Below are positions 21,804 to 38,332 of a DNA stretch of 64,000 nt, in pieces; positions within the stretch are counted from its first letter, which is position 1; the number at the start of each line of letters is the position of its first letter. The stretch is from Aureobasidium sp. EXF-3400 (taxonomy: Eukaryota > Ascomycota > Dothideomycetes > Dothideales > Saccotheciaceae). The notes below the pieces were generated by a model. That model was not told where the DNA came from and did no database searches. It saw only the letters and a program-made list of their open reading frames with translations. The stretch covers positions 1-64,000 of the forward strand of contig SWBL01000147.1 in the NCBI GenBank assembly GCA_024195585.1. The letters run 5' to 3'. The translations under genes were made by a program, and so were the position numbers.

Positions 21804-22835
21804 ATGGCTTCAAGCATTTCGGACTTGAAGCATCACATGCAAATAATAGGAACTCTAGAAGAGTATAAATTTCTCGCCAATCTCAATCCCGCAACTTTGA
21901 ACCTCGAGCAACAAGAATATGTGCGGAAAAGACTCGAAACAACCGAGGTGGAGGCTAGAATCAGATCTACTCTTCCATACGAGGTGCAGCGAGAGATACA
22001 CCAGCATCTACTCCGCGACTCCGAGCCAATCGATATCACCAGACGCGAGAACCACGTTACTCCAGACCATTATACCGACCCACATGTCGAGTTTGACTAC
22101 TGGAGACTCACGCCTTTTGTATATCCAACCGATAACGTTCATGATGCTGTCATCAGCATGAACGCGCTGGAGTTCGTCGAAGACGTGCTTCTAAATCCTG
22201 CACACATGGCTCGCTTCCAGACTCTTGATCCACCCAAGCAGATTACTTTCGAGGTCCTCATTCGTTGGGATTTCTTACCTGAATTTCTCCCCGAGATATC
22301 TTTAGCCAATATGGACTCGCTTTTCGATTTACTCCACGTCTTCGATGGCGATGTGAATCGCATCAAAGTAAAGTTTTTATTCAAGGATTCAAGAGTCGAT
22401 TACAGCAGAGACCCTTCCACAAAAAGGGAAATCGCACCGAACAACGAAGGCCGCCTTCGCATCATGAAAGCCAAAATGCTGGATCTACTCCAAACAGCTA
22501 TGTTGGCATACCACAACGCTTTCCACGCACCAGCTAGAATCCCGGCTACCAGCGGGTTTGCACGACAAATGGCAGTGCGAAATATACTCGATCCCAATAT
22601 GACAGATGCTGTAAAGCATACAATTGTCAGAAATTGGCTGGGTACCACCTGTTCCGATTTGCTTGATAATATGTGGAGCAGCGATCCGAGGAGGGCTGGG
22701 TTTGTCAAGTATCATATGTTGAGGGCTTTTGAGATGGATCAGCGGTACTATGATAGGGATGAGGATGTTGAGGAGTATGTTGAGAGGATGGGGATACCGT
22801 TTTTGCCTATGCATAAGGAGGTGTATTTTTCGTAG
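21804..22835 (+). CDS. F-box-like protein, window family A member 1
   Basis: 343-aa single-exon protein. Residues 55-80 read LPYEVQREIHQHLLRDSEPIDITRRENHV, an F-box/2EXR-like segment. The second half holds a core also found in three other genes of the window (23084-24421, 38704-39816, 41480-42550): ITFEVLIRWDF, then an I-x-L strand, SLFDLLHVFDG, IKVKFLFKDSRVDY and PSTKREI, followed by a helix with AKMLDLLQTAM. I do not recognise the core as a named domain. It ends with an acidic, tyrosine-rich tail (RYYDRDEDVEEYVER). Confidence 0.72.
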   Translation: MASSISDLKHHMQIIGTLEEYKFLANLNPATLNLEQQEYVRKRLETTEVEARIRSTLPYEVQREIHQHLLRDSEPIDITRRENHVTPDHYTDPHVEFDYWRLTPFVYPTDNVHDAVISMNALEFVEDVLLNPAHMARFQTLDPPKQITFEVLIRWDFLPEFLPEISLANMDSLFDLLHVFDGDVNRIKVKFLFKDSRVDYSRDPSTKREIAPNNEGRLRIMKAKMLDLLQTAMLAYHNAFHAPARIPATSGFARQMAVRNILDPNMTDAVKHTIVRNWLGTTCSDLLDNMWSSDPRRAGFVKYHMLRAFEMDQRYYDRDEDVEEYVERMGIPFLPMHKEVYFS

Positions 22836-23083
22836 ACATGTTTTTCTTACTTTGTTGGAGTTACGTCAGTTCATATTCATTTGTCGAACTACTTCCATCG
22901 AGGACTACAGTGTGCAAAATGACAGGAAAGCGCTCAATAGCAGCGAAAGATACAAAATTGACAAGTATGCACAAGAGAATCTGATCGACAGGAAAATTTG
23001 GAATCAAACAGGAAACCCTATATCAACAGCAGTACATCGCGACGTATATGAAACCAACAAAACCAAAACCCCAAAACACCAAA

Positions 23084-24421
23084 CTACCAATCAGACTCAG
23101 AATCATCGTTCCAAGGCTTTTTTGGCTGTGCTCCCAGACTCCAATAATCCTCCAGTTCCCAGTGGCAATTGACAGGGTTTCTGAAGAATTGTTCACCTTG
23201 AGGCTTGACCTTATGCTTCACCACGAAAGCCTTCGGATCAGCATTGAACTCCCAGATAGCCGAACCACTATATCCCACTTGCGTTTCTAGATAGCTCAAG
23301 AACTCCTGCGTGAGACCGTTGTAATACATTTCTCCTGGCAACACGGGAGGGATTTTAAGGTTTACACGTTGCCAAAACTCGAGATAGGCTAGTTGGAAGT
23401 TATCGTTGTAATCGATGACTTGAGTGCGCAGGTTATGGCAGATGTTGAGTGCTAATTTGTTGACGAAGTTTCTTTGATGTATACCTTTACGAGCACAAAC
23501 CATACCAATTTTGACGGTCTTGGGTACGCTGTCACGGATCGGTTTCCAATGTTTTCCGTGCAGACCTTCGGCTTTCTGCGCATCAGATAGTGAGTCTCGG
23601 ACTTCTCTGTCGAGGAGATAGCCTGACCACATTTCTAGGCCTTCTTGGATGACTTGCATGTATCTCTCTTTGATGCCGAGGCCATCGGGGATTGCTGCTT
23701 TGGTGGGGTAGTCGGGATCTTCTTGGTAGGCGTACATGTTCTCTTGACCTCCGTGGTATTCGAGGACTAGGGCTTTGGGTTTGGTGTAGCGTATGTCCTT
23801 CCACTTCAAAGCAATGTCTAAGCGATGTCTGTTCCCAGGAAGCTGACACTTCAAGATCTTGAATAGCCATAATAGAGCGCGTATGTTGGTGATCTCATCT
23901 CTGGTTCGGAAGATAGGTTTGTGTGCGCCGTCAACAGCCCCTTTATGATCGAAAATGCACAACACTTCGAACTCGACAGACTTTGGAGGCTTGACATTGC
24001 GAAGTCTGGCAGGGTGTGGGAACTCTTCTCGACTTGCATCTGGGTCCGTCGGTGCTTGCTCGGGGTAACAGAACAGGCGATGAGCAAACTTGAGCATGCG
24101 TTTCAAAGACATACGCCAGGGTTGCAGATACATACCGCCAGCATGACCGGAGCCGAGATGCTTTCGGTCAACTCTATACCATGCTTCTCCGGGCACGTAT
24201 AGACGGACTGTTCTCCAGTAGAGTTGCCATAAAAAGAGTGAGTTCACCCAGTCTGGGGCTTTCCTGGAGCCTAGGCGAGTAAGATCGACATCGTATTTGT
24301 TCGATCGAAACACTTCCTTGTAGATTTCGAAATGCAGCTCTAGGGGAAGGTCGTCCAGTAGAGGTTCTACGACCTCGGGACTCGTACTGTCCAAGGAGTC
24401 TTCCATATCATGATCGTCCAT
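23084..24421 (-). CDS. F-box-like protein, window family A member 2
   Basis: 445-aa single-exon protein. The acidic leader is followed by LDDLPLELHFEIYKEVFRS, an F-box-like helix, then YWRTVRLYVPGEAWYRV, which matches the WTNVTLVVPGEKTL and WLNVPLIIPAEACL segments of the members at 38.7 and 41.5 kb. The family core appears as SVEFEVLCIFDH, ALLWLFKILKC, LDIALKWKDIRY and a helix with GLEMWSGYLL. The C-terminal 150 residues are specific to this member. The function is unknown; it is tail-to-tail with member 1. Confidence 0.72.
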   Translation of the reverse strand: MDDHDMEDSLDSTSPEVVEPLLDDLPLELHFEIYKEVFRSNKYDVDLTRLGSRKAPDWVNSLFLWQLYWRTVRLYVPGEAWYRVDRKHLGSGHAGGMYLQPWRMSLKRMLKFAHRLFCYPEQAPTDPDASREEFPHPARLRNVKPPKSVEFEVLCIFDHKGAVDGAHKPIFRTRDEITNIRALLWLFKILKCQLPGNRHRLDIALKWKDIRYTKPKALVLEYHGGQENMYAYQEDPDYPTKAAIPDGLGIKERYMQVIQEGLEMWSGYLLDREVRDSLSDAQKAEGLHGKHWKPIRDSVPKTVKIGMVCARKGIHQRNFVNKLALNICHNLRTQVIDYNDNFQLAYLEFWQRVNLKIPPVLPGEMYYNGLTQEFLSYLETQVGYSGSAIWEFNADPKAFVVKHKVKPQGEQFFRNPVNCHWELEDYWSLGAQPKKPWNDDSESDW

Positions 24422-24720
24422 GTCTCAAGTATATCAGTCTAGATCGATACTACTACAGGGCGATACTGGTGTTCGACCGTGGATGCTATATAATAAGGCT
24501 TGTCGTGACATGACACCGAGGGGGTACAGAAAAATCCTAACGACAAAGAACCATTCGAGTCCTTCAGTGTCCGGAAGAGGACTTCGTTAGCTGTTTTGTG
24601 ACTTCTCATTGTTGGCGACTGTCTTGTTGATAATGCCGCTTGCGGAAATGTGAATTGTGCCAGCGAACAAAAGAAAAGCCCTTGGAAGGTCGGTGAGATC
24701 GAGCGCTTTGTCTTGCCCAA

Positions 24721-25377
24721 TCAAGAAGCGCGTCCAGTGGCAAGTCCATAGATCTCGGCAGCGCTTTTATCAATGGGCTTGTAGGTCGTGTCAAGCTCAA
24801 AGACATGTCTGACGTAAATGTGTGGCAAGTGCGTCTGTACATGAGCTAAGTCAACGAGCTTGTGTTTATCAAGCATATCGTCCAGAACTTCTGGATTGAT
24901 GAGTTTCGTCTTCGATCCTGTAGATCGCTCAGCCGTAACTAATCTGCCGTGATGCTCTAATTTGCCGCAAGAGATGTTGAATAGGTAGAAAGGAGTCTGG
25001 TGACGAGAAGCGATAGCGAGGTATTCTTCGAGGACTTGCTGGTCCTCCTCTGTAGTGCTTAGACAGCTGGTCATGATCATAGTTGTGTTTTTGTCTTCGA
25101 TAGCACATAATGCATTGAAAGCTACTTGGCGGATGGCGCGACGCAATGCTTTATGATCTGCTCCTCGTCCAGGTACAATGGCTTGGACTGGGTCAATCAT
25201 GAGATGGTTGTCGATGAAGCGAGCATGCCGAGCATCAAACATCTCGAATAGTCTTCGGCCTATTGAGAATTTACCTACACCTGGAAAGCCATTGAGAAGG
25301 ATGACTCCCCCGTCTGGCAGACTCATAGGTTGTGAGTGATCCGCACTGTCCGCATCTCCGTGAATGTCCTTGCACAT
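24721..25377 (-). CDS. P-loop kinase of the AAA_33 type
   Basis: 218-aa protein with a Walker A loop GFPGVGKFS at residues 34-42 in the setting ILLNGFPGVGKFSIGRRLFE, and a following IDNHLMID segment. This is the layout of small AAA_33/zeta-like nucleotide or metabolite kinases. TMIMTSCLSTTEEDQQVLEEYLAIASRHQTPFYLFNISC fits the strand carrying the Walker B position and the next helix. The late region KLINPEVLDDMLDKHKLVDL is typical of fungal members annotated as chloramphenicol phosphotransferase-like. I chose the Met at 25377 because a TATATA box (25523-25528) sits just upstream of the longer alternative at 25518. The substrate is unknown. Confidence 0.8.
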   Translation of the reverse strand: MCKDIHGDADSADHSQPMSLPDGGVILLNGFPGVGKFSIGRRLFEMFDARHARFIDNHLMIDPVQAIVPGRGADHKALRRAIRQVAFNALCAIEDKNTTMIMTSCLSTTEEDQQVLEEYLAIASRHQTPFYLFNISCGKLEHHGRLVTAERSTGSKTKLINPEVLDDMLDKHKLVDLAHVQTHLPHIYVRHVFELDTTYKPIDKSAAEIYGLATGRAS

Positions 25378-25522
25378 TGCCACAAGGGTCGGAGGCAGCG
25401 AAATCGCCACAGTTGTGATGTAGGAGATGAGCGGATACAAATAAGATCTGGAGAGGCGACTTTTGCTGTGACTCATGCAAGTCGGCGGGTGGGAGAGCCT
25501 GCGTGAATGTTGGCACACCGCC

Positions 25523-25535
25523 TATATATCACGTG
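25523..25535 (-). promoter_or_regulatory. TATATA box and CACGTG E-box
   Basis: TATATA at 25523-25528 and a palindromic CACGTG (bHLH site type) at 25530-25535, about 150 nt upstream of the kinase start at 25377. This position also supports the shorter start. Confidence 0.4.
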
Positions 25536-25609
25536 TATCGTGTGCCGCATCTTAAAATGTGAATCCTGATAAGTCATGAGCAGCACATATCACACCAGCG
25601 GAAAGAGCG

Positions 25610-26361
25610 ATGGACTTTATCAAACACGAAAATTCAGGACACGACGTCCTATCTCAAGACTGTGACTCACATGCATACTTGTTCAGTATGCCCTTACCAC
25701 CACCAGAAGCATTATCAGGCAAGGCCACGAAGCAGACTGATCGCATAATCTGGGCTCCTTCCATTCCACCCATCGATCAGAGCGAACTCCACCAGATAAT
25801 TTCTGTGCATGGTATCTTGGCACAAGCATCCTAGCTTAGAAATGGTACTCAGTGTACTTTCGCTCTCGATACTGATGTGAAACCATTCTCAGGCGGTCAA
25901 TGTATTGTCTTTGTGATAGAGTACACAGATGGTATCAGGTACGCTCTTCGACTCCCCTATCATATCCGGCAATGGAAGACTGTCGAGTTATTCTGGTTAA
26001 ATGAGCTGTAACATTGGAGTGCTTTTTGGAAAGCCAATGTTCCGTTCGTACCGCAAATCGTCGGGTCCAGCTCGTCGAGCCACAATTCAATTGGCTTTCC
26101 TTTCCTTGCGTATGAGTGGGTGGAAGGGAAGTCACTGCTTTGGGACGACCACAACCCGCAAGACCTAGCACAGCGCGAGGAGATAACTAAGAGCTTGGTT
26201 CATTTCATGATCGAAACCGCTTGCCAATTACAAAAACCACGTAAGATCTCTGACCAACATCCGCGAAGCACTGACTGATGGGAGATAGAAAAATCAACCG
26301 CTGAGGACTATGTCACTCAAGCGATAGACCGTAAGATCAAGCGAGTCTTGAACGGACAGCT
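25610..26361 (+). pseudogene. APH-type kinase relic: N-lobe only, nonsense codon, C-lobe lost
   Basis: N-terminal half of a fungal aminoglycoside phosphotransferase-like protein. The first exon starts at 25610; a likely intron ends at the ACTCAG before 25855; the second exon has the N-lobe pattern CTFALDTDVKPFSGGQCIVFVIEYTDG then ALRLPY. A TAA at 26009-26011 interrupts an otherwise conserved helix (LFWLNEL, stop, HWSAFWKANVPFVPQIVG). After it the frame continues through FLAYEWVEGKSLLWDD, a further intron ends in GATAG near 26289, and the frame ends at about 26361 before any HGD or DxD motif. The combination of a nonsense codon and loss of the catalytic lobe indicates a pseudogene. The exact first splice site is uncertain. 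Confidence 0.65.
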
Positions 26362-26732
26362 CCGTAATGCGTAGCAAAAACACCGAGACGAAACGCCGCG
26401 ATCACCAACTAATCCTCGATACAGTCAAAAGCCTATGTGACACGCATGGAGAGACTTGTCGCTCCTTCTATCGTGTGCTTGCTTCGAAGAATGAGACTAT
26501 ACGGTATTGGTGGTTCACGGCAATCAGTAACCAGAAGTTACATCAAGCCATGGTCAAAGTCGATTGGCTGCTTCATGAAGCGGAGTCGGCGGACGAGGAC
26601 CTTGAGAACGAACGGTAACTGTTTCAATTGGCCAATCCCGGGCACTAGGTCAACTCAGTACCCTCCTTAGATTGCACGTTTATGGTCGAGATGTGGAGTT
26701 TGGAAGAGGTCTCTCCTGGAGAAAAAACGGTT
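26362..26732 (+). other. Region between kinase relic and protease 3' end, 371 bp
   Basis: Contains an 83-codon frame (26367-26618) with no resemblance to an APH C-lobe and no good initiator context. I regard it as decayed sequence. Confidence 0.4.
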
Positions 26733-29700
26733 TTACAATCTCAGTACCTTCAAAAATTCTCGGCGTATTTCCTCCAGGTCCTGTCCAAATAGATTGTGAC
26801 GGCTCAAGCTGAGTTCTACGTAGAAATATCCATCTCTCGGCTGGTAGTTTGGTCCTCGCTCAGCGCATCTCCTGAGCAAGCACTCTATTTTCTCTTTCCG
26901 CATGAGCCCTTGCGTCTCTTTCTCAGATAGGTGCAGACGAGCAAAGCTTAGAAGAAATGCTGTGATTCCAACCATGATGGGTGTTGCGTATGATGTTCCA
27001 GACCGGGTCTTGACGTGTTCTCCATCTTCGCAGAGTAGCATTGGCCACGCCGACTGGACTGACTGACCCACCGTTGCAAGATTGATGGTGTTGCGCTCAG
27101 CTGTGGGGCTGAAGCCTGATCTATCTCCGTCGGTATCGGTTGAATGGACGCAGATGACATGTGGGCTACTAGCCGGGTATGCTCTGCCGGATCGTCCACC
27201 GCTGTTAGACGCTGCAGCGAACATAAGAACTTTCTTGTTGTAGGCTTTGTCAATAGCCTGTTCAAGGACGTCATAGTTCTCGAAATCAGAAGAAGGCCAG
27301 CCGAAGGACATAGAGATCATGTCCACCTTCCACTCATTCACTGCGTAGTTGATTGCCTATACGTGTCACTAACCTGCAACTGACAATAAGTTAGACTAGT
27401 CCTGATACTTACATTCGCAACAATCCTAGCATCGGGTCTCATGTTCATATCTGCAATTTTGATGACATATAGCTCTGCATCTGGAGCATAGTCGAGTATT
27501 AGACTCGTGGTGAAGGTACCGTGTCCATTTCGATCGACAACATTTCGGTGAGACTCATTGTAGGAGTTGTGTTTTGCTTTCAGGCACTCTCGACGGGCTT
27601 CGAAAGTCTCGTGATCGCCGTCGATACCTGTGTCTAAGATTGCAATTCTTATAGGCTCTGGTAAGATGTCCTTACCACGTGTTGTGCTAAATTTCTGGTA
27701 GACCTTCTCGTATTCTGATCTCCATGTCAGATATTTCCTTGTTCTGAGCCAACACTAAGTCAGTTAACATCCCTCGTTTCCGAGTGTCGAAGGATATCAG
27801 GGGTTGACATACTGCATCATCACGTCCTCATTTCCGCTTTCCATATCATCAAAGAACCGGCATATGTCAAGGCCAGTGCCAAGATCCGACACACCTTTGG
27901 GACCCGCCGTCGGATGTGACAGTACAGGACCAAAGGGATGTGAGAGCATGTGTGAGTCTGATAGCCTTACATAACAGAGTTCACCTTTGATTGGAACAGG
28001 AGAGACTAACGCCGGGGTAAAGTGGAAGGAAGGCAGACAATCTGTAGCTGCAGCAGATGCTGCAGTCGCAGCAGACATTGAGCCTGGCTCAGGGTCCATG
28101 ATCTGCCCCCAGCTCCCAAGGTCGATATTCCTTGCATACTTTTCGATATCGTCCAAGGGGATTCGACCAAAACCGGAGGTCAAGTGCGCTTCCAAGGGCT
28201 TAATAAGTAACTCTTCTATCCGTAAGGTGAGGGTTGCACTATCTAGCGGCAAGCCTTCGTGATCTTCCCAAAGCTTCGTATCCAAGCAGTGATCTATAGC
28301 GACGAGCACGGGAGAGTCTTGAGGCATATGCGATCGCCATCCCTCCGGGTCCTCTTCATCGTCGCCATTGAAGACCTGATCGACGTCGACGAGGGTGATA
28401 CGTCCGGCTGGTTCCTCAATAAGCGGTACTCCACGCAAGTCTGCTAGCTTCCTGAACGTCATGACAAAGTGAATCTCCATTAGAACTACTGCTAAAGCAA
28501 TCAGTGTCGGACAACGATGCCTAGAATCCAGATCCGCTAGATTGTCGCTGTTGATAGCTTCGTGGATAACGCGCAGGTGTATACTGGAGTCTATTTCTAG
28601 AGAAGAAGTTTGTGGCAGTTGCGTCTGGATGAACGGTCGTAAAGGTGTTTGGTGTGAAACTGTCTGGAAAAATTCAATGCTCTTAGAGCTCCATCCTGGC
28701 TGGAGCCATGAAGACCCATTAAGCTGAAGCGTCATGTAACCAAGAATGAGCGAAAGAACCCGCTTCGTCTTTTCCGTGAAAAATTCATGTCTCTCTTCTA
28801 GGCATCGATGCAGAGAGATAGGTTCTGCAACTTTGCGAATCCGGGAATTGCTCTTCTCGATATCGATTTCGAACAGGTGACCGCTGGTAAGCTCCAACAC
28901 TAGGCGTTGCAGAGCTCGAGGTTTGACCTTGGCAATTGATTCGCAAAGATGATCTACTTTCTTGTACCTGCGTGAGTCGCCTCTCCCGGGAGCGAACGGC
29001 TTTGTGGCATCCAAGGCGGACTTTGCAATGGTTTCTTTGTCGGCGCGAATACGAACTTCGCCCCATTCTATTCCTGTGGAGAGAAACATGTCGAATCTAA
29101 GCTCTTGTTGTGGTTCGGGATTACCATGCACCTCATGCGTATAGTTGAGTGAGGATACATCGATGTTGTGTCCTCCAACAACCTTTTTAGTCGTTGCGTA
29201 GGCGCCGAGTCCGAGTTTTGCTCTGAAATCATGTCGATCCACGCAAGGACACGCCTGACAACCGAGCAGTGCGTCAAAAACAGTTTGTGCTGTCTTCCAA
29301 ATTGCCTTGGTAGAATTGCCTGACCTTGAGGGCATCAGGATATCTGTAGCCTTTTTGGGATGAAGTTTGGATGATTGCCTGTCGAGATCGTCGGCGCAAC
29401 ATTTAAGCCTCTTGTCTATCTCTCTACGATATTCATCACTCAAGTCAAGCTTCGTCCACTCTGTTATAAACTCGCGTCTCTCATTGTCTTGCTGATGCTG
29501 TATTTCACCCCAGCGAAAGTTGAGAGCTTGTAGCCGCGACTCCGGAGTAGCGGTATAAACCTCCAATCTTTGGAGACAATCCTCGGATATCAACGAGCCG
29601 AGATGACCTAGAGCCTCAATGATAACGTTTTTGTCGGGCTTGAAGAAGTGCTGTCGTGAGCAATGTATATGGTTTCGGAACCTCAGACAGTGAGACGCGA

Positions 29701-29839
29701 GGTGGCTATAGAAAATCTTCAATTTTCCGTCCGATTCGCGCCCTCGCGCGATGTTTGCGATCTGCATCAGGATCTCGGACGATTCCAGAAGCAACCCATC
29801 GCAGCTGCCATCGGTTTCAGTATCTGAGTACGTGCTCAT
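26733..29839 (-). CDS. Subtilisin-like (S8) serine protease with large N-terminal fungal domain
   Basis: Intracellular-type subtilase of 993 aa from exons 29839-27813, 27743-27413 and 27356-26733. The C-terminal 300 residues are a complete S8 domain: catalytic Asp713 (IAILDTGID), His750 (DRNGHGTF), oxyanion Asn837 (AAASNSGG) and Ser908 (RSGTSYATP). No signal peptide or transmembrane segment. The N-terminal 650 residues are mostly helical; around VFDALLGCQACPCVDRHDFRAKLGLGAY and IALAVVLMEIHF they follow the pattern of the fungal DUF7580 region, which precedes S8 domains in many ascomycete proteins. It diverges from the WOPR fusion gene across 351 bp and lies 4.7 kb from a gasdermin-like gene. 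S8 proteases next to fungal gasdermins (het-Q2 with het-Q1) cleave and activate them, so that role is inferred here. The upstream in-frame codon at 29863 is GTG, so 29839 is the start. Confidence 0.9.
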
Positions 29840-30190
29840 TCTGCCAGCTTCGGTTGAGGTCACACTGAGACTCTAGTTGGTGCAAAACTCAGCAGGGTTG
29901 ACTTTCTCCTGGAAGTTCGAGCATGATCAATCATGTCGACTCGTGGCTAATGCAGCGAATGCGGATCTTTGGAGGGGTATGCATATGATCAAAGCACGCG
30001 AGGTGTCTGATAAGCCAGCTCGGGCCAACCAGAACGGGTCGGCTCCCCAACTAAGGCAATGGTAGCGGCCGCATAAGCATACTACATCCCGTGGCACCGC
30101 CCAATCTCTAGGACCACAATTCTCAAAGTTTGCCCCGCACGAACGTCTCATTCTTCTCACTGTCAATCCAATTTATGATATGAGAAGCTC
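29840..30190. promoter_or_regulatory. Bidirectional promoter between S8 protease and WOPR fusion gene
   Basis: 351 bp between the two start codons, holding a NotI-like GCGGCCGC palindrome near 30065 and no coding signal. The divergent layout suggests common control of protease and transcription factor. Confidence 0.5.
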
Positions 30191-33100
30191 ATGTATGCGC
30201 ATCGATCTCATTGGGACATGGACAAGATTCCAGAGCCATCACAACCAACTATCGCCGGCTATTGCAAGGATTGTCTGGAATCTCTTGAGCGATGTTTCTC
30301 GCAAGCATTCGACCATTCCAGGGAGCAATCGATGATAGAAGACCGAGTTGCGATGTTCTCCACCTGGACTGTGAGTACTGAGGTTTTCAGTCATAGGCAT
30401 GCCTCTATGGACTATCGGCTGCGATATGCACAAGATGTAAGGGACGTCATTCTTGGTCTTCTAGAGTCACTAAACCGTCTCATTCATGACTGTAAGTTTG
30501 TTTCCGACAGATTGTCCCTAGCTTACTGTCTCACTTTGAGCACTAGTACTCATTACTAGACATTCAATTGATCATATTCACAGGTCATTCCGCCCTTGCC
30601 GCTCTTCACGAGTCCACGACAACAGAACCCTACGAGAGTCGAGACCAAGATTTAGAGCAGATATTTGATGATGTTTCTGCCGAGATCGACAACCTGAGCA
30701 AGATGACGAACTCGATAAATAGAGCCAAACTAAACTCTCAAAAATTGGAGAAGATTGACGATGGCGATGATGGCGATGATGTAGAAGCTTCCTTGTTCGA
30801 CCAGTTCGTGCGTCATGTCAACGATCGATTTCCTGATGCCAGCGGCATACTCCAACAAAGGCTAGCTCGTACGATGCTAATAAGACGGAGAAGATTCCTG
30901 TACAGAAGGCACCGTGAAGCAGAGTCTGCTATGCTGGATCTACTGACGATCTCCGAGTCACGTCCTATGCCGCCAGGTGCTGTGAAGAACGATGCATCGA
31001 TCAAGACCGAACCTCAAGGAGTGGACAGAAACTTCTCTATAATCCCAGCAACTATCCCTGTAGCCACAAAATCAACAAATGCATCACCTTTACCAGCAAC
31101 TTTCAAACAATCTGCCGTTCCAGGAAGCAAAGCCTTGTTGCCGGATGATCATCATTTGTCTCACTCCAATCAGATTGCGAGATTGATGTATGACCAGCTC
31201 ATGCTACAGTGGTCAGCTGTTGATCAGGTTTTGCTTGACGACCTGGACAACACATGTCTTGGTATAGTATTCCACGACACACATGCCCCAAGTTAAGCGT
31301 TCCTGACATGGCTACAGACAATCTGGCATCTGCAGGTACCCAAGTTCGGAAAATCCTAGGGACGGATTCACAAGCACGAGAGGAAACAACCTGCCCTTAT
31401 TGTCTCTATGATCTGCCATCGACGGAATTGTTTAGCGGGCATAAGTGGTAGTCAGTAATTTTCCTGATCGAGGTCATCCTGACTGAGAACGATAGGCGTT
31501 GCTAACTTAATTCTTAGTGATCATTTCATGGAAGATCTCGACCCTCACGTCTGTCTCTTCGAAGACTGTCTGCAACCGGACGAGCTCTATAGTCAGAGTG
31601 AGGACTGGCTTGCCCATTCTCATGGCCACAGACAGTTTTGGCAGTGCTCTTCCCATCGTGAGCTTGGTCCTTTCTCGGCGCGTGAACATTACATTCACCA
31701 CATGCGGGAAGATCATGGCATGAAGCTCAGTGATGCCAAACTTCGCGTCTTGGCCAAGAGGAACGTCCACAGACTGGAGAAGCTGTTTCCATCTTGCCCT
31801 CTGTGTGGGAGGGACGATGCCGAGGTCCTGGATCACCTTACGGAGCACATCACAGAACATTTAAGGTCCCTTGCATTCAGATCTCTCCCGGGCTCTCAGT
31901 CTCGGACAGATGCTCGCCAGAGTGCAGTGAGGAAATCCAAAAGCCTAGTCCAGCCACATCAACTTTTGAGTTGTGACCAATGTCGAAAATGTAAACGCAA
32001 AGTAAGTTCCACAGACCAAGCCCATCAATATATACGTCAAATCTAAGATTGCTGTATAGTGTGACCGCGCACGGCCATGCTCCGCCTGTTGTGCCAGGGG
32101 CTTTCCAGAAGAATGCCACTATCGTGCCGAATTAGGATCAATACAACAGTCGCTCGAACTTCGGAGATTGCGAGTTGAGAACCAACGTCTTAAAGAGCGT
32201 CTGTTGACTGACAAGCCCTCAATTCTAGAGGACAGCGAGACTAAAGAAGGTTCCATGCATGCCTTCGGTCCTAGAAGAAATGCCACATCTGGACCGATAG
32301 AATTTTCGCTCGAACTTCGAGACTTACGAGCTGAAAACCAGCGACTCAAACAGTATCTGTTTAGTGCCGAACCCTCAGCTCCAGAGGAGAGTGAGACTGA
32401 AAAAGGCTTCACGAAAACTCTCGGTTCTGACGGAAGTTCTGGCAAGTTTGCTGCTAGGAGTGTCGCTATGGAAGACGATCCAGACAATGAGGACATCCCA
32501 AATGTTCGACCAACATTACAGTGGAAGGACGGAATAGCTTACTTACACTTCGGTGAAGTTCAGACTACTCCGGACCCCGCTGCAGTCGAGGAAATGGAAG
32601 GCCTATCTAACAATTTTGCTGGAGAGGCGTCACATTGGCGCGCCTCTGGGGTGATGTCTGGACGAAGAACGAGCAATCATCCCCTTCTAACATGGCATGG
32701 GCTTATCCAAGACAGCGTAGACGCCCTCGTCGTGTTCGAAGCCTGTCTCAGTGGGACGTTACAACATATCCTTCGCCGTCCTTATGACCATGAGCGAGCA
32801 AGTCTCATCAGAAGCGGGAGTGTGTTCGTATATGCGGAAGATACGGCGGGTATCAGGCGCTGGACTGATGGTATCGCTTGGAGTCCTAGCCGCATTATTG
32901 GGAATTTTTTGATCTATCGTGAACTCGAGAAGCCTCAACCTTCTAGCGAAAAGAAACCCACCATCAAGCGCAAACGATCTTCGCAAGAACGATCCGTCCA
33001 AGCAACTGAAGGCTACCAAGATTCCAAGGAAGTTGATACCTCAGGATACCATCGGCTCCCGCCAATCCCGCCGTTGCCAATGAGCCCTCTCAACTCGAAG

Positions 33101-33679
33101 TCTAGCGTACCTGGTATGACCGACAGTGATGATAAGGAGAAGCGCCAGCTCGTTGGTCCTCTTGTTGATTCTTACGGCTTTAAATTGGATGGCCTGATAA
33201 AGAAGACCATGAGCATCACTTTCGAAGGTGCCTCGCATCACCTTGTCTCTTATTACACCGTCGAAGACGTCAAACAACGAAAGCTCCTACGTCCATCAAA
33301 CGACATTCGTCTTAACGGTATCGCAATCCGCCCTGAGCTGTATATCAAGCAAAACTTCCGTACACCTGTAGAGGAGCAAGACCAGTTTGCCGTCGACTAT
33401 AGTGGACATGCCTATCCTCAATGGAGTGGCAACTCAGACATGGCAGTACTCTCAGGCTACAGAATGCGTCAAAGCAACGTCGTACCTGGTTACCCACCGA
33501 TGTACACGACTGGTATACATTTGAATGACACAGCAATTCACCCGGAGCTTTACCTGAAGCATACATTCCGCGCGCCTGAAGTGGAGTCTCACGCCCAACA
33601 ACACGAATCTGTGGATGAGCGAGGTGGGCCTAGCAACAACACAACCATGAAGATATACAATCGTGATGAAAGCGATTGA
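30191..33679 (+). CDS. Multi-domain transcription factor: acuF-like C2H2 region + Zn2Cys6 + coiled coils + WOPR (Gti1/Pac2)
   Basis: Five exons (30191-30491, 30584-31261, 31318-31447, 31518-32001, 32060-33679) give 1070 aa in one consistent frame. Residues 1-510 resemble the fungal 'acuF-like C2H2' family: a helical N-terminal part, then CPYCLYDLP, DLDPHVCLFEDC, a W-x2-H pair, and FPSCPLCGRDDAEVLDHLTEHITEHL. Residues 522-550 form a textbook Zn2Cys6 cluster (C-x2-C-x6-C-x5-C-x2-C-x8-C) split by the last intron. Two coiled-coil copies follow (about 560-580 and 614-631). WOPRa is at about 739-822, with VVFEACLSGTL, ERASLIRSGSVFVYAED and RRWTDGIAWSPSRIIGNFL; WOPRb is at about 894-947, with LVGPLVDSYGFKLDGLIKKT and HHLVSYYTVEDV. 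WOPR proteins (Wor1, Ryp1, Sge1) are master switches of morphology and virulence. I know of no described WOPR protein with a Zn2Cys6 and C2H2 front end. Confidence 0.88.
32150..32425 (+). repeat. Internal tandem duplication of a coiled-coil/acidic module
   Basis: Two copies with a 156-nt (52-aa) period, starting at 32150 and 32306, encode SLELRRLRVENQRLKERL and SLELRDLRAENQRLKQYL, each followed by an acidic SETKEGS/SETEKGF segment. The first 14 nt of the copies are identical. The module sits between the Zn2Cys6 cluster and the WOPR domain, where zinc-cluster factors usually have one dimerisation coil. Confidence 0.8.
33305..33586 (+). repeat. Two PELY repeats after the WOPR domain
   Basis: Two 24-residue units 70 residues apart read IRLNGIAIRPELYIKQNFR and IHLNDTAIHPELYLKHTFR. 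They lie in the C-terminal tail of the fusion factor and are diverged at DNA level, so the duplication is not recent. Confidence 0.7.
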
Positions 33680-34533
33680 GTTATGCTCTGAGACCTGGAT
33701 TGGCTTCACGGACGTGAGATGGAGGAGCTTTGTTCATTCGATCACCTCGGTAAGCGATGGCATTGAAGGGAAAGATCATGGATCAAGCGTTCGGCCTGTT
33801 ATTGAGTCATTCTGATACTCCGCATTGCCCTGTCACGCAATGGTTTCTGTATGCGGTAGTAGCCATGCTCAGCACAGCGGTGAAGATGCGCAAGTTCGGA
33901 TATAGCGCTCCTCATAGCTCTCGAAACGGCAGTGATGAGGCCCCTTGGTGCTGGAGATGCGCCTGCTGTTTACGAAAGAACGGCCTAGAGTCAGATGTGA
34001 GCGCCCATATTCGATTAGATGGTTTGGGATTAGATGAAAAGCCGTCCATATAACGAAGTCAAGATCTCTCTCAGGCATAGTTTTTTGTTGCTCTTCTCCT
34101 CTTCGAAGAGTAGATGTAGCCACACTGAACAAACTTGTACTTCTTGTGACTGCCGCGAGACAGCTTCTGGCTTAGACACGATCCGCCAGATGTGGAGACT
34201 ACAGTTCGATCGAAGGGCGGCTCATCATCCGGGCGTGCAGCTTAGGCTACAAAGAGATTGTCCAATGAGATGTGGATTCATGCAGTTCAGAAGGAGTTGA
34301 GATAACATGTGGTGGTCAGACTGCAAGCCACTAATAGTCCCGCAGCGGAAGTATTTAGCCGAGGTAGTCGCCGTCATCCTAGTGATCTGGACTGTCTCTC
34401 AGACATCAGTATCGATAAAGCGACTTTAGGCCTGCTCCGAACTTGGCTTCAGGGTAGTCATCGGGGCCAGTTGTTCTTATAGACAGCAGTGGCTTTGATA
34501 CTTCAAAATCTGTCAAATCGACTTCGCAACAAT
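33680..34533 (+). other. Intergenic, 854 bp
   Basis: 3' flank of the WOPR fusion gene and promoter region of the gasdermin-like gene. The small ORFs (for example 33757-34053) have no protein-like features. A GTG-started extension at 34489 adds 15 residues to the next gene but is not a normal eukaryotic start. Confidence 0.45.
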
Positions 34534-35386
34534 ATGGCTAATACCCAACCTGTCTTCTTCTATGCACCGACATGGGATTATCCTGTCGACGGTCCGATAA
34601 AGCTGGGCAATGTTATCACGTCGGTCAAGACACCCCAGCGATCCCTCCATTGTGTCGCACCAGAAGGATCGGATGTGTTCTCGAGCAAGAAAAGCAGTGT
34701 TGAATACACTACAGATAAACTTCGGAGTGGGAAGTTTTCCATATTGACCAAATTCCTCAGCATATTCGGCTTTGGGATCGATGTCGGCGCTGAGTCAGGC
34801 AACAGGTAGACAATCTCTTTTTCAACAGCACTAGACATAGGTCTTATTAACAGTTTCAGTCTTGCCGAAACCTTCTCTTTTACCACGATGGATACCACGC
34901 AGTTTTCTCCAACATTACTGTACATCCAGAAATGTATCGACTCCGACAATGTGCGCCGTTTCCTTCAGGCATCCCGTTTTCGCAAGCCGGTTTATGTTAT
35001 CACTGGTGTAAAGGTCGTCAAGGGAGCCAAAGCAGATACCACCAAGGTCCGCACCACCGGAGCAAATTTGTCGGTCGAGGTAGATGGTACAGGAGGGCCA
35101 GTCAAAACGCCACGATATCACGAAGTGGGATGGGAGTGACGACTTCATCTTCGCATTCCGTGTCAGCAGAGTCTATGTTGAGAAAGCAACGGACCAAGTC
35201 AAAAGCGAAGAGGAGTATCGTAAGGGCGCTATGTTGGACAACACAGAGGAGCTCACCGAAACCCCAGAGCTCTCTGTCTTGCAATTCGAAGAGTTCAAAG
35301 CGACGGATGGGGACTTCGACATTGAAGAGTTGACAGATGACCAGGAAACAGTATTTTGCGCAATTCCAAGAGAGGAATCTTGGTAG
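34534..35386 (+). pseudogene. Gasdermin-like cell-death pore protein, reading frame broken
   Basis: Start codon at 34534; a 48-nt intron at 34806-34853. The reading frame from exon 2 stops at 35139 (185 aa), while the expected C-terminal part lies in another frame from about 35084 to 35386. No plausible intron joins them, so I infer a frameshift between about 35087 and 35125. The total span fits the 250-280 aa of fungal gasdermins. Support for the family: the opening WDYPVDGPIKLGNVI; the segment SDNVRRFLQASRFRKPVYVITGVKVVKGA, which matches the gasdermin helix plus VYVVTEVL-type strand; and SDDFIFAFRV, which matches the late 'LAFRV' strand. Fungal gasdermins form plasma-membrane pores after proteolytic removal of a short C-terminal piece. 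Its neighbour is an S8 protease. Alternatives: a real truncated protein, or a sequencing/assembly error. Confidence 0.68.
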
Positions 35387-36319
35387 AAGACGAATGGGTA
35401 AAGAAGAGCAGTTCCTCATATGATTTATGACAGACGATGTACGGTGACCACACTTCCATGCTTGTCGCTAGACCAAGTCATTTTGCCGTGTCAATTTTCT
35501 TCGATCCAAGTCTCGTCATAATGTCAGTATCATAACTGACGGGTAACTCCTCTGAACCTTCTAAACCGGCACCAAATGGTCGTTGAGAAATAGTAGTCTC
35601 TCCATGGCAGGAGCCAAACTGGGGTGTGTGCTCTTTGCAATCTTGTTAGTAGCTTCGTATTCACGTGTCTACCTCCTGACTCTGTAAGGCAAGTCTTGTT
35701 CAGAGATGATCGCAGGTCGTGTCTACGGTCAAGGTGTCTGAGTCGCTGCTTTGGGACAATTGATCGGGGTCTTGGCGTCACGTGAACAGGCGACAAGTTT
35801 GACAGCCCAAGGTAGCGACGACCCTACACACACCATCATTCACATTGCGCATGCTTGACTCCAACATCTCAGTCGTTTTAACATCGTTACATCCGTATTG
35901 CTATTCGTCACCACCAAGACGCCACTGCCACTGCGCACCGAGAGCACCGAGTCAGCCAGTTCTGCCGCCTGTAACGCCCAACCGCGAGCGCGCCATCCTT
36001 GTCTGCTGTCCGAGTCGAACCCGATTGCATCGCTGCAGTTTCGTCAAGAGGCTGTCTTGTCTGCGGTCCCGTTCCTCGAGCTCTTACAAGCGTGGCCCCC
36101 GACCAGTGCAGATACTCGTGGCAGTGCTTGCTGGGCTCTGTCTTTCTCGCACAGCCGGCAGTACAGAAAGAGTCAAGGCTGCTCCAAACAACAGAAAGCC
36201 TGGGTGGGTGGGTTACGCATCTGAGTCTCTTGACCGATGCGGGATACGAGTATCCCTTGCTTTTTGAACGCGATCCCCTGCTGACCTTCGTGACTGACTT
36301 CAGCTGATTTTGTTTGACC
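35387..36319 (+). other. Intergenic, 933 bp
   Basis: Overlapping ORFs on both strands at 35845-36321 have arginine/serine-rich composition typical of shadow frames. I see nothing that supports a gene or RNA. Confidence 0.45.
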
Positions 36320-38332
36320 ATGGCTACTCAAGCTGACATAGATGCCCTGACCGACAAACTTAGCACAACTGGCCCTCTGTCATGGGTTGTCACAGATTGT
36401 CCCGTCGTCGCCCTGTTCAAGAATGCCCAAACCCACGACCTGGACTCCCTGGGCCAACCATTGGATCGAAATGGCTGTGGTGACCTGCTCAGGCTCTGGG
36501 TGGGCATGAATCAGGATACTCGCGAACTCTTTGTGACTCTGACTATCCGTATTCGAGTATCGCCTGTTAGAAAGAAGACTCGTCGTCAAGGCCGTCTCAT
36601 GTTCCTTATACTCCCTTCCAGTTCCCTACGCTTGAGAAGTTCGGTCGTTAGCTACTCGCAGCTGGATCAAGTGCTCTCGCAACACCTCTTCGACGTACCC
36701 AGTGATACACCATCGGCAAAGTGCGAACTGCTCAAGATATCCATCGATCTCGGACCTTACACCAGCGATGTCATCATGCCTGAGTATCAGTGCAGATCGA
36801 ACGTGGTACCACAGGCAATGCTCCTGCTGCAGAAATTAAAGTCGCTTTCCGAAGTACCCTCTTTCCAACTATACACCAATCAAGAAGTCTCAAGGGAGGC
36901 AGCGATCCAGCACGTATCCAACATATTGCTGGAAGGATCCTCGATGATCACGCCGTCAGTCGACACCAGAGGCTTCTATCCCGGAGGTCGCTCAGCGTGC
37001 AAGAACATGTGGTTAGAACAAGGGTGGCTTGAAGCCGGACACAAGGGCGTGCCGGCCAAAGAACATCCAGTCGAGATGAATCAAAAAGAATCACATCGCT
37101 TTTTCAAACCCCAGCCTCCTCCACCTTACACATCAAATGTTGTACCAGATCATGCACTTGCACCCACATCCCCAGGCGCGGATGGGCTGATATCGTTACC
37201 ACCGACCATTGCTCCTGTGTCTCAACACGGACTATCAAGTCTGCCAGCGACAGCACTTCCAGCCACCAGTGCTTCTGCCCGCCCCGCCTCATGTAATCAG
37301 TATCAACAGCCCTGCGGAGATGAGACTGAGTTGGTACCAACGAGGACCTTGAATTCTCGTGTCCGCGAGTCCTCTCCTTCAACTCCCGAGGCATCGCTCT
37401 CATCTGGTTACACTGCCACATTTCTGTCTGGATTTCCGAGTCAATCACCGCTACACAGAATTCGAGACAATTTGGTGGCCCAAACCAAAGCAGTTCAGGC
37501 CGAGAGCGCTGACGCGTTTGTACAAGTAGCAGCCTCTTCTATAGGCGATCATGCCTCTCGTGATGATAATGCTTCGACCCGTGCCAACACACCGAGCACT
37601 CTGAGCCGTGTTTCTGATTCTATCAATCGCAAAAGACTTCTGTCGCACCCGCTCCAAGAAGATGCCAATAAGATCTCAAAGCGACAAGCCTCGTTCCAGC
37701 AACAATCACAGACGCTCTTAATCAATGGGCTTCAAGCGGACTTTTCGCCGACAATTCCTGATACCACGTCCTCTGATGAGGGAGACAAATTCAACATATC
37801 AACGGAAATCGGTCATCGATCTGAACGAGGAAGTCAGCTCTCTCAATGGCTGTTCCAAGCCTGGCATTATTGCCCAACAGCACATTACCTTTTCATCACC
37901 GAATTGCTAAGCTATGGTGTCGCTTTGTCCAGGAACGCCTCGGAAGACGAGATAGCAGCGTGTCATCTCGATTGCACTCTTGCTCTACTCGCTCGTTGCA
38001 CGGAGCAAAGACTGGCAGGAGAGCCCGATCATTCTAGCACCGACTGCAAGCCTGATGCTGAAACACGAGCTCTGGTCAAGTGGCTGTATATACTTCGACC
38101 CGGCGCTGACATGGATCTGTTTTCTTCTCTGACACAGTTGTCTTTGTTGGGCCAACAGTCGCTTCCCGTCTCTCGCACTGGACGGGATTGTTCTACGCTT
38201 GTTGCCACATTCCGACAGCAGAAGGCAGAAGTTGTCAGTCAAGCTTGCATACGGTATGGTACAGGACTGCTACAGTATGACTCAAGTGATCTTGTCTCAA
38301 GAATGCTACGAGAAGAAAGCAGCGAAATCTAA
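36320..38332 (+). CDS. Unrecognised fungal protein with long disordered centre
   Basis: 670-aa single-exon protein; the first true ATG is at 36320 (36314 is TTG). The N-terminal 220 residues are folded-looking, with alternating strands and helices (LSWVVTDCPVVALFKNAQ, RLMFLILPSSSLRL, SVVSYSQLDQVLSQHLFDV). The centre (about 260-490) is Pro/Ser/Thr-rich and disordered. The C-terminal 170 residues are again folded and helical (LSQWLFQAWHYCPTAHYLFITELLSYGVAL, ALLARCTEQRL). No catalytic or binding motif that I can name. Good codon use and a 670-codon open frame make it a real gene. Confidence 0.75.
   Translation: MATQADIDALTDKLSTTGPLSWVVTDCPVVALFKNAQTHDLDSLGQPLDRNGCGDLLRLWVGMNQDTRELFVTLTIRIRVSPVRKKTRRQGRLMFLILPSSSLRLRSSVVSYSQLDQVLSQHLFDVPSDTPSAKCELLKISIDLGPYTSDVIMPEYQCRSNVVPQAMLLLQKLKSLSEVPSFQLYTNQEVSREAAIQHVSNILLEGSSMITPSVDTRGFYPGGRSACKNMWLEQGWLEAGHKGVPAKEHPVEMNQKESHRFFKPQPPPPYTSNVVPDHALAPTSPGADGLISLPPTIAPVSQHGLSSLPATALPATSASARPASCNQYQQPCGDETELVPTRTLNSRVRESSPSTPEASLSSGYTATFLSGFPSQSPLHRIRDNLVAQTKAVQAESADAFVQVAASSIGDHASRDDNASTRANTPSTLSRVSDSINRKRLLSHPLQEDANKISKRQASFQQQSQTLLINGLQADFSPTIPDTTSSDEGDKFNISTEIGHRSERGSQLSQWLFQAWHYCPTAHYLFITELLSYGVALSRNASEDEIAACHLDCTLALLARCTEQRLAGEPDHSSTDCKPDAETRALVKWLYILRPGADMDLFSSLTQLSLLGQQSLPVSRTGRDCSTLVATFRQQKAEVVSQACIRYGTGLLQYDSSDLVSRMLREESSEI

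Follow-up and report, generated by a model that had tools for sequence, protein, structure and literature searches.

We examined a gasdermin-like gene (34534-35386, forward strand) in the window, i.e. the first 64,000 nucleotides of contig SWBL01000147.1 of Aureobasidium sp. EXF-3400. With a probability of roughly 70%, we read this gene as a recently disrupted gasdermin that belongs to a three-gene cassette, in which a second gene, named here Z, would be the sensor, a DUF7580-subtilase the relay protease and the gasdermin the executioner.

The translation of positions 34852-35139 (95 amino acids) matched RCD-1-1 of Neurospora with an E-value of 1.6e-7. At a threshold of E 0.001, a query joining the two exons of the gene (172 amino acids) retrieved 137 proteins, the top one showing 69% identity with a query coverage of 98%. 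The family profile A1, built from 12 relatives with the window gene left out, recognised RCD-1-1 (1.4e-16), RCD-1-2 (1.6e-14) and HET-Q1 (pore 9uv9, 1.4e-10). The closest intact relative, P0001, exhibits in its structure model a gasdermin N-domain fold that is RCD-1-like by comparison with the folds of the PDB; HET-Q1 (9uv9) is outside the best 50 fold matches listed for P0001, a result to which no weight was given. These matches, together with the modelled fold of P0001, assign the predicted product of the window gene to the fungal gasdermin family (RCD-1/HET-Q1 type) and bear out the original prediction, which had called a gasdermin from a few motifs. The motifs are present where it had placed them, and the RCD-1-1 match and the 137 proteins exclude a chance resemblance. 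In the Pfam-A scan, the three gasdermin pieces of the window gave no gasdermin match at E up to 10, and six gasdermin relatives gave no family at E up to 0.001. Because there is no Pfam match although the family clearly matches RCD-1, the Pfam gasdermin profile (PF04598) falls short of this branch and is uninformative as a membership test. Of the checks proposed with the original prediction, the one by PF04598 returned no gasdermin match, while the RCD-1/HET-Q1 comparison and the fold of P0001 support the family.

Exon 1 (34534-34805) begins MANTQPVFFYAPTWDYPVDGPIKLGN, and positions 34534-34824 share 73% identity with residues 1-98 of P0001. The intron that follows (34806-34859, GTAGAC...TTTCAG) aligns at its start and at this end with the paralogues of the loci C10 and C8; an alternative possible acceptor ends at 34853. 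Exon 2 (34860-35139), which carries the RCD-1-1 match, contains LQASRFRKPVYVITGVKVV and runs to a premature TGA (35137-35139), and DDFIFAFRVSRV is found further downstream. A single continuous product over the 853-nucleotide interval, as first proposed, is not what the gene encodes: it has an intron, the frame of the VYVITGV strand stops at this TGA and the FAFRV strand sits in the frame of 35084-35386. The alignment with the intact paralogues of C10 and C8 exhibits a single gap of 38 nucleotides after VDGT, with the deletion point at 35092/35093. Beyond it, the displaced remainder of the gene (35093-35386, forward strand, other frame) holds the FAFRV strand and the C-terminal tail, ends with REESW and a stop codon, and is 61% identical to residues 185-280 of P0001. 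The predicted product of the window gene is truncated at about 183 residues.

The pore-forming domain with both membrane hairpins is thus incomplete, through the deletion in hairpin 2, the change of frame and the stop. With this deletion and the stop, we read the window locus as a disrupted homologue that is probably not a working member of the family; judged from its sequence, the truncated product should not form pores. The stretch around the break has the same number of residues (14) in 80 of the 87 aligned relatives, which are the members of P0001-P0092 longer than 240 amino acids, the other 33 of the 120 listed being excluded. By analogy with RCD-1 and by the structure model, the break would lie at the tip of the second hairpin, the portion that would insert into the membrane. 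Of the conserved columns, the window gene retains 46 of 47 upstream of the deletion (C10, 47/47; C8, 45/47) and 11 of 14 downstream of it (C10, 12/14; C8, 13/14), and because the sequence is so well kept elsewhere the break is probably recent. As dS is at or near saturation, relaxed selection on the broken gene is not claimed. The proposal that the product runs cell death after proteolysis does not suit this copy, frameshifted inside its pore-forming domain, and may fit the intact paralogues of C10 and C8.

In the window, gene Z (30218-33679, forward strand) lies between the gasdermin-like gene and a DUF7580-Peptidase_S8 protease, which it adjoins and from which it diverges. The protease (26733-29839, reverse strand) comprises 993 amino acids after splicing of the introns 27812-27744 and 27412-27357, gave Peptidase_S8 matches, and presents all three catalytic motifs, D, H and S (LDTGID, NGHGT and SGTSYATP). 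These three motifs were found by a simple search in the window, C10 and C8. The window protease is about 4.7 kb from the gasdermin-like gene, with Z in between, a distance below the 10 kb used to define a HET-Q2-like (Q2L) protease.

The genome (53.4 Mb, 717 contigs) was searched with three gasdermin queries; genome searches of this kind score the best candidates only, and the locus counts given here are lower bounds. At least five gasdermin loci were found, i.e. the window, C10, C8 and the more distant C7 (E 2.4e-7 to P0001) and C535 (E 0.03 to P0001, 2e-8 to C7). Genome searches with the paralogue proteins added no sixth gasdermin locus; they gave one further match, on C21, which covers 69 residues and is weak (E 0.03). 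At all five loci found, a DUF7580-S8 gene and a Z gene stand beside the gasdermin. Eight loci were found to carry the C2H2 module of Z and nine to carry DUF7580, namely the same eight and C663, and the Z and DUF7580 genes are divergent at 8/8 loci. The gasdermin adjoins the protease at the other four gasdermin loci and lies beyond Z in the window. The three-gene cassette of gasdermin, DUF7580-S8 protease and Z is well supported.

At C663 (2873-4696, reverse strand), a HeLo domain is fused to DUF7580, with a weak kinase match; this fusion suggests a kinase-like nature of DUF7580 and a use of it in more than one kind of cell-death output. In P0198, P0202, P0211 and P0212, DUF7580 is joined to PF01048 with no S8 listed. 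The DUF7580 proteins of C136, C118 and C171 start with a hydrophobic stretch (MAEAAGLVLGAIPLIF or MSGIEIAGLVLAVIPLF) that has no Pfam match.

The cassette is also seen in other fungi. The serial tags of both gasdermin and protease are visible in eleven assemblies, and in nine of them the two genes are neighbours, their tags differing by one. Consecutive tags for Z, protease and gasdermin are present in Monosporascus MG133 (DL767_006201/006202/006203), Fusarium lateritium (ACHAPJ_010999/011000/011001) and F. gaditjirri (FGADI_687/686/685). The distance between the Z and gasdermin tags is two in four of five cases and 129 in F. solani-melongenae; in the case of Trichoderma virens FT-333, the middle tag is absent from the listing. 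Taking equal contig size as a proxy for the same contig, which is weak for chromosome-sized contigs, a comparison of 120 gasdermins, 89 proteases and 25 Z proteins gave 24 gasdermin-protease pairs and 10 gasdermin-Z pairs. Seven contig sizes are common to all three kinds of gene, one of them being the T. virens case.

For Z, a search scoring the 8000 candidates that share most words yielded at least 25 database relatives. Similarity to the window Z begins within the first 14 residues in 23 of these 25 and reaches residue 484 or further in 24, so that Z consists of a conserved module of about 484 residues and then a tail that differs between loci. The 30 tails compared (25 from the database and 5 from the genome of the window) fell into 21 groups at mutual 50% coverage, and that of the window matches no other among them. 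The first 100 or so tail residues of C8, which resemble 16 of the 25 database tails, form a linker. The tails are kinase-like at C10 and C8 and carry ankyrin and TPR at C7; at C171, the open reading frame (ORF) after the Z module holds NPHP3_N and ankyrin, and at C535 a homeobox-like match lies ahead of the C2H2 part. Among the database proteins, SH3 (P0134), PAH with a PAN3-type zinc finger (P0126) and, in others, TPR or ankyrin were found, with no Pfam match in 7 of 9 proteins rescanned. Long automatic gene models may be wrong, and single tails are to be read with caution. No NACHT/NB-ARC match was obtained in the window Z ORFs scanned, NPHP3_N with ankyrin being confined to C171. By eye, the kinase-like tails look degenerate (HGDIKAEN with AEFN at C10, HRYIRPES with AEFS at C8), and they are probably pseudokinases.

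For the intact copies we propose that a trigger would meet or alter the variable tail of Z, and that Z would then release the DUF7580-S8 protease via its conserved N-terminal and C2H2 module. The protease would cut the short C-terminal tail off the gasdermin, and the freed gasdermin would form pores, leading to the death of the cell. With its protease and Z genes open and a frameshift in the membrane hairpin of its gasdermin, the window locus probably represents a sensor and a protease that lack an executioner of their own.

A different role for Z, that of a dedicated regulator, is a possible but distinctly less probable reading. The divergent orientation of Z and DUF7580 at every locus where the pair was found speaks in its favour, as does the fact that C2H2, Zn2Cys6 and WOPR, the last present in the window tail, are DNA-binding domains. 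However, next to a constant module the type of tail varies by locus (kinase-like, ankyrin/TPR, SH3, PAH or none recognised), which is unusual for a dedicated regulator, and the C10 and C8 cassettes align with each other, Z included, whereas their flanks do not.

Several points weigh against the cassette of sensor, relay protease and executioner. What connects Z with the protease is their neighbourhood only. The Z-DUF7580 pairs at C118, C136 and C171 have no S8 or gasdermin match, the window arranges the three genes as protease, Z and gasdermin, unlike the other four loci, and the gasdermin of C535 is recognised chiefly via its match to C7 (E 2e-8). In the simple motif search, the protease presents H and S only at C535 and none of the motifs at C7. 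In other fungi, the protease is not beside the gasdermin in two of the eleven assemblies, Cephalotrichum gorgonifer (DNG_04526 / DNG_02418) and Trichoderma virens FT-333 (002218 / 001928, the latter without a listed S8). By the same-contig proxy, 10 of the 25 database Z proteins match a listed gasdermin, and one of those 10 sits 129 tags from it. As for the break itself, an assembly error at the deletion site is possible, and splicing could be unforeseen, a weak intron (35080-35125) giving an in-frame product without the hairpin tip.

These last two points make up the reading that the gene is intact in the organism, the 38-nucleotide gap being an assembly error or a second intron repairing the frame. 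The downstream frame is still open for 100 amino acids and ends like the paralogues, and the candidate second intron 35080-35125 (GTAGAT...AAG, 46 nucleotides) would bring the frame back, minus the hairpin tip. Nevertheless, this intron is weak: it is very short, has an AAG acceptor and contains none of the listed branch-point-like motifs. Moreover, C10 and C8 are read through this stretch in one open frame, and a loss of 38 nucleotides is atypical of a homopolymer error. We consider an intact gene unlikely and retain the recent disruption. When donors, acceptors and branch-point-like motifs were listed for a rescue of the frame by splicing, weak introns alone fitted. Ribosomal frameshifting, for which no signal search was made, is not favoured. 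As to the origin of the gap, a deletion between short repeats was dropped, the spacing of the repeats in C10 being incompatible with 38 nucleotides.

The tail of the window Z holds a full Gti1/Pac2 (WOPR) domain (32690-33259, forward strand; E 1.9e-59; Wor1 4qtj, E 1e-25). The C2H2 exon ends with CDQCRKCKRK and is joined to CDRARPCSACCARGFPEECHY by a GTAAGT...TATAG intron (32002-32059). The stretch thus joined passes the Zn_clus cut-off, and the frame is then open for 210 codons into the Gti1/Pac2 domain, as it was in 1 of 20000 shuffles. That the WOPR part is a separate gene misread as a fusion is improbable: its similarity to the stand-alone gene does start near that gene's own start (MSGRRTS... 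versus MSGSGSG...), but the upstream frame is open over those 210 codons and the Zn2Cys6 motif is complete only when spliced to the C2H2 exon through this intron.

The genome has two stand-alone copies of one type of WOPR gene, which we take to be Ryp1/Sge1-like, and two of a second type. The window Z tail is 70-71% identical to the two copies of the first type over 266-267 amino acids, and their long Q/S-rich end is missing from it. The nonsynonymous and synonymous divergences between tail and stand-alone copies are dN 0.18 and dS 1.4-1.7 (dS near saturation), compared to dN 0.018 and dS 0.99 between the two copies. On these values the WOPR tail is constrained but diverged, a pattern that would have the look of an integrated decoy; a recruited DNA-binding part would look identical. 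Within the tail, a 148-nucleotide tandem repeat (32125-32428; 70% alike, spacing 156 nucleotides, i.e. 52 codons) lies in a leucine-rich, coiled-coil-like stretch.

The least probable reading is that the short product of about 183 amino acids is made and active, as a dominant-negative or a partner subunit of the intact C10/C8 gasdermins: its region before the deletion keeps 46/47 conserved columns and, in the excerpts of PMC12881547, RCD-1 acts through contact of two variants, but having lost half of hairpin 2 along with its C-terminal tail it should not complete a pore wall, and the 11/14 columns kept in the displaced part suggest a recent break, not a selected short form.

The protease, Z and the gasdermin-like gene lie in a segment (22841-35765, borders approximate) that the collinear contig C126 lacks. 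Over its first 49.5 kb, C126 matches blocks spread across the entire window, in the same order and at 67-87% DNA identity, and the protein beside a PAN2-like match is 98% identical between the two regions. Positions 22840-35962 of the window correspond to merely 353 nucleotides in C126, with finer borders at about 22.84 and 35.77 kb, i.e. a segment of about 13 kb. The C10 and C8 cassettes align mutually, and their flanks do not (19 kb fetched for each). From the gap in C126 and this alignment without flanks, it follows that the cassette behaves as one unit in gain, loss or movement, and the "accessory region" of the original prediction is thereby supported. The repeat search (22600-36300) gave 19 direct families and 22 inverted pairs of repeats of at least 18 nucleotides, and no mobile element was recognised at the segment. 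As terminal repeats, there is a lone weak inverted pair near both borders (22 nucleotides, 73%, 22661/36178), which was taken as chance.

Two ORFs of the segment, 24724-25521 and 23087-24424 (both reverse strand), are also missing from C126; one has weak P-loop/phosphotransferase matches below cut-offs and one is unique in the genome. The gene after the cassette (36323-38332, forward strand) belongs to a dispersed family with 33 genome matches, many on small contigs, and has no Pfam match. Many regions seem to be present in the genome as two diverged copies (C147/C126, C381/C284, C12/C25, C118/C136). Such pairs would be expected of a genome that is hybrid or duplicated; alternatively, the assembly may mix two strains or species.

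In the excerpts of the papers cited here, fungal gasdermins are under proteolytic control by neighbouring proteases (PMC10197012, PMC12881547). PMC12881547 reports protease genes beside more than 80% of the gasdermin genes of fungi and also mentions "two- or three-gene clusters" and proteases with a fused kinase-like domain. The HET-Q1/HET-Q2 system of Podospora anserina resembles the window in linking a gasdermin homologue to an S8 subtilase with full triad, and the het-Q2 idiomorph in being a protease locus without a working gasdermin (PMC12881547). Unlike HET-Q1/HET-Q2, the window has a third gene, Z, in between and a frameshifted gasdermin, and HET-Q2 has 388 amino acids (PMC10989679) against the 993 of the window protease with its DUF7580. 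As in the Q2L two-gene clusters, the window protease has the S8 D/H/S residues less than 10 kb from a gasdermin. RCD-1 of Neurospora crassa is the best solved relative by sequence and fold; it is reported free of proteolytic control (PMC12881547), whereas a protease is linked to the family of the window gene. The excerpts of PMC10197012 and PMC12881547 do not describe a third gene that combines a constant C2H2 module with tails of different kinds; Clave 2022 may describe one. Our literature search, which left most subscription journals outside its scope, found no paper naming DUF7580, none pairing WOPR with gasdermin and none pairing fungal gasdermin (fGSDM) with C2H2. Like plant immune receptors with integrated decoys, the window has, in a cell-death locus, a modular protein to whose end a duplicate of a host regulator is fused; unlike in those receptors, no NLR core was seen in the ORFs of the window Z that were scanned. 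Fungal NLRs that may carry decoy domains have been suggested (PMC5658179).

The triggers of fungal cell-death sensors are a major open question (PMC12881547). For the sensing part, the conserved third gene with its interchangeable tails provides a specific candidate, and the window tail, a copy of a WOPR regulator of the fungus itself, indicates a target that can be tested. The window, in which the executioner is broken, its neighbouring protease and sensor are open and the whole segment has no counterpart in C126, offers a natural example of gain and loss at a fungal cell-death locus.
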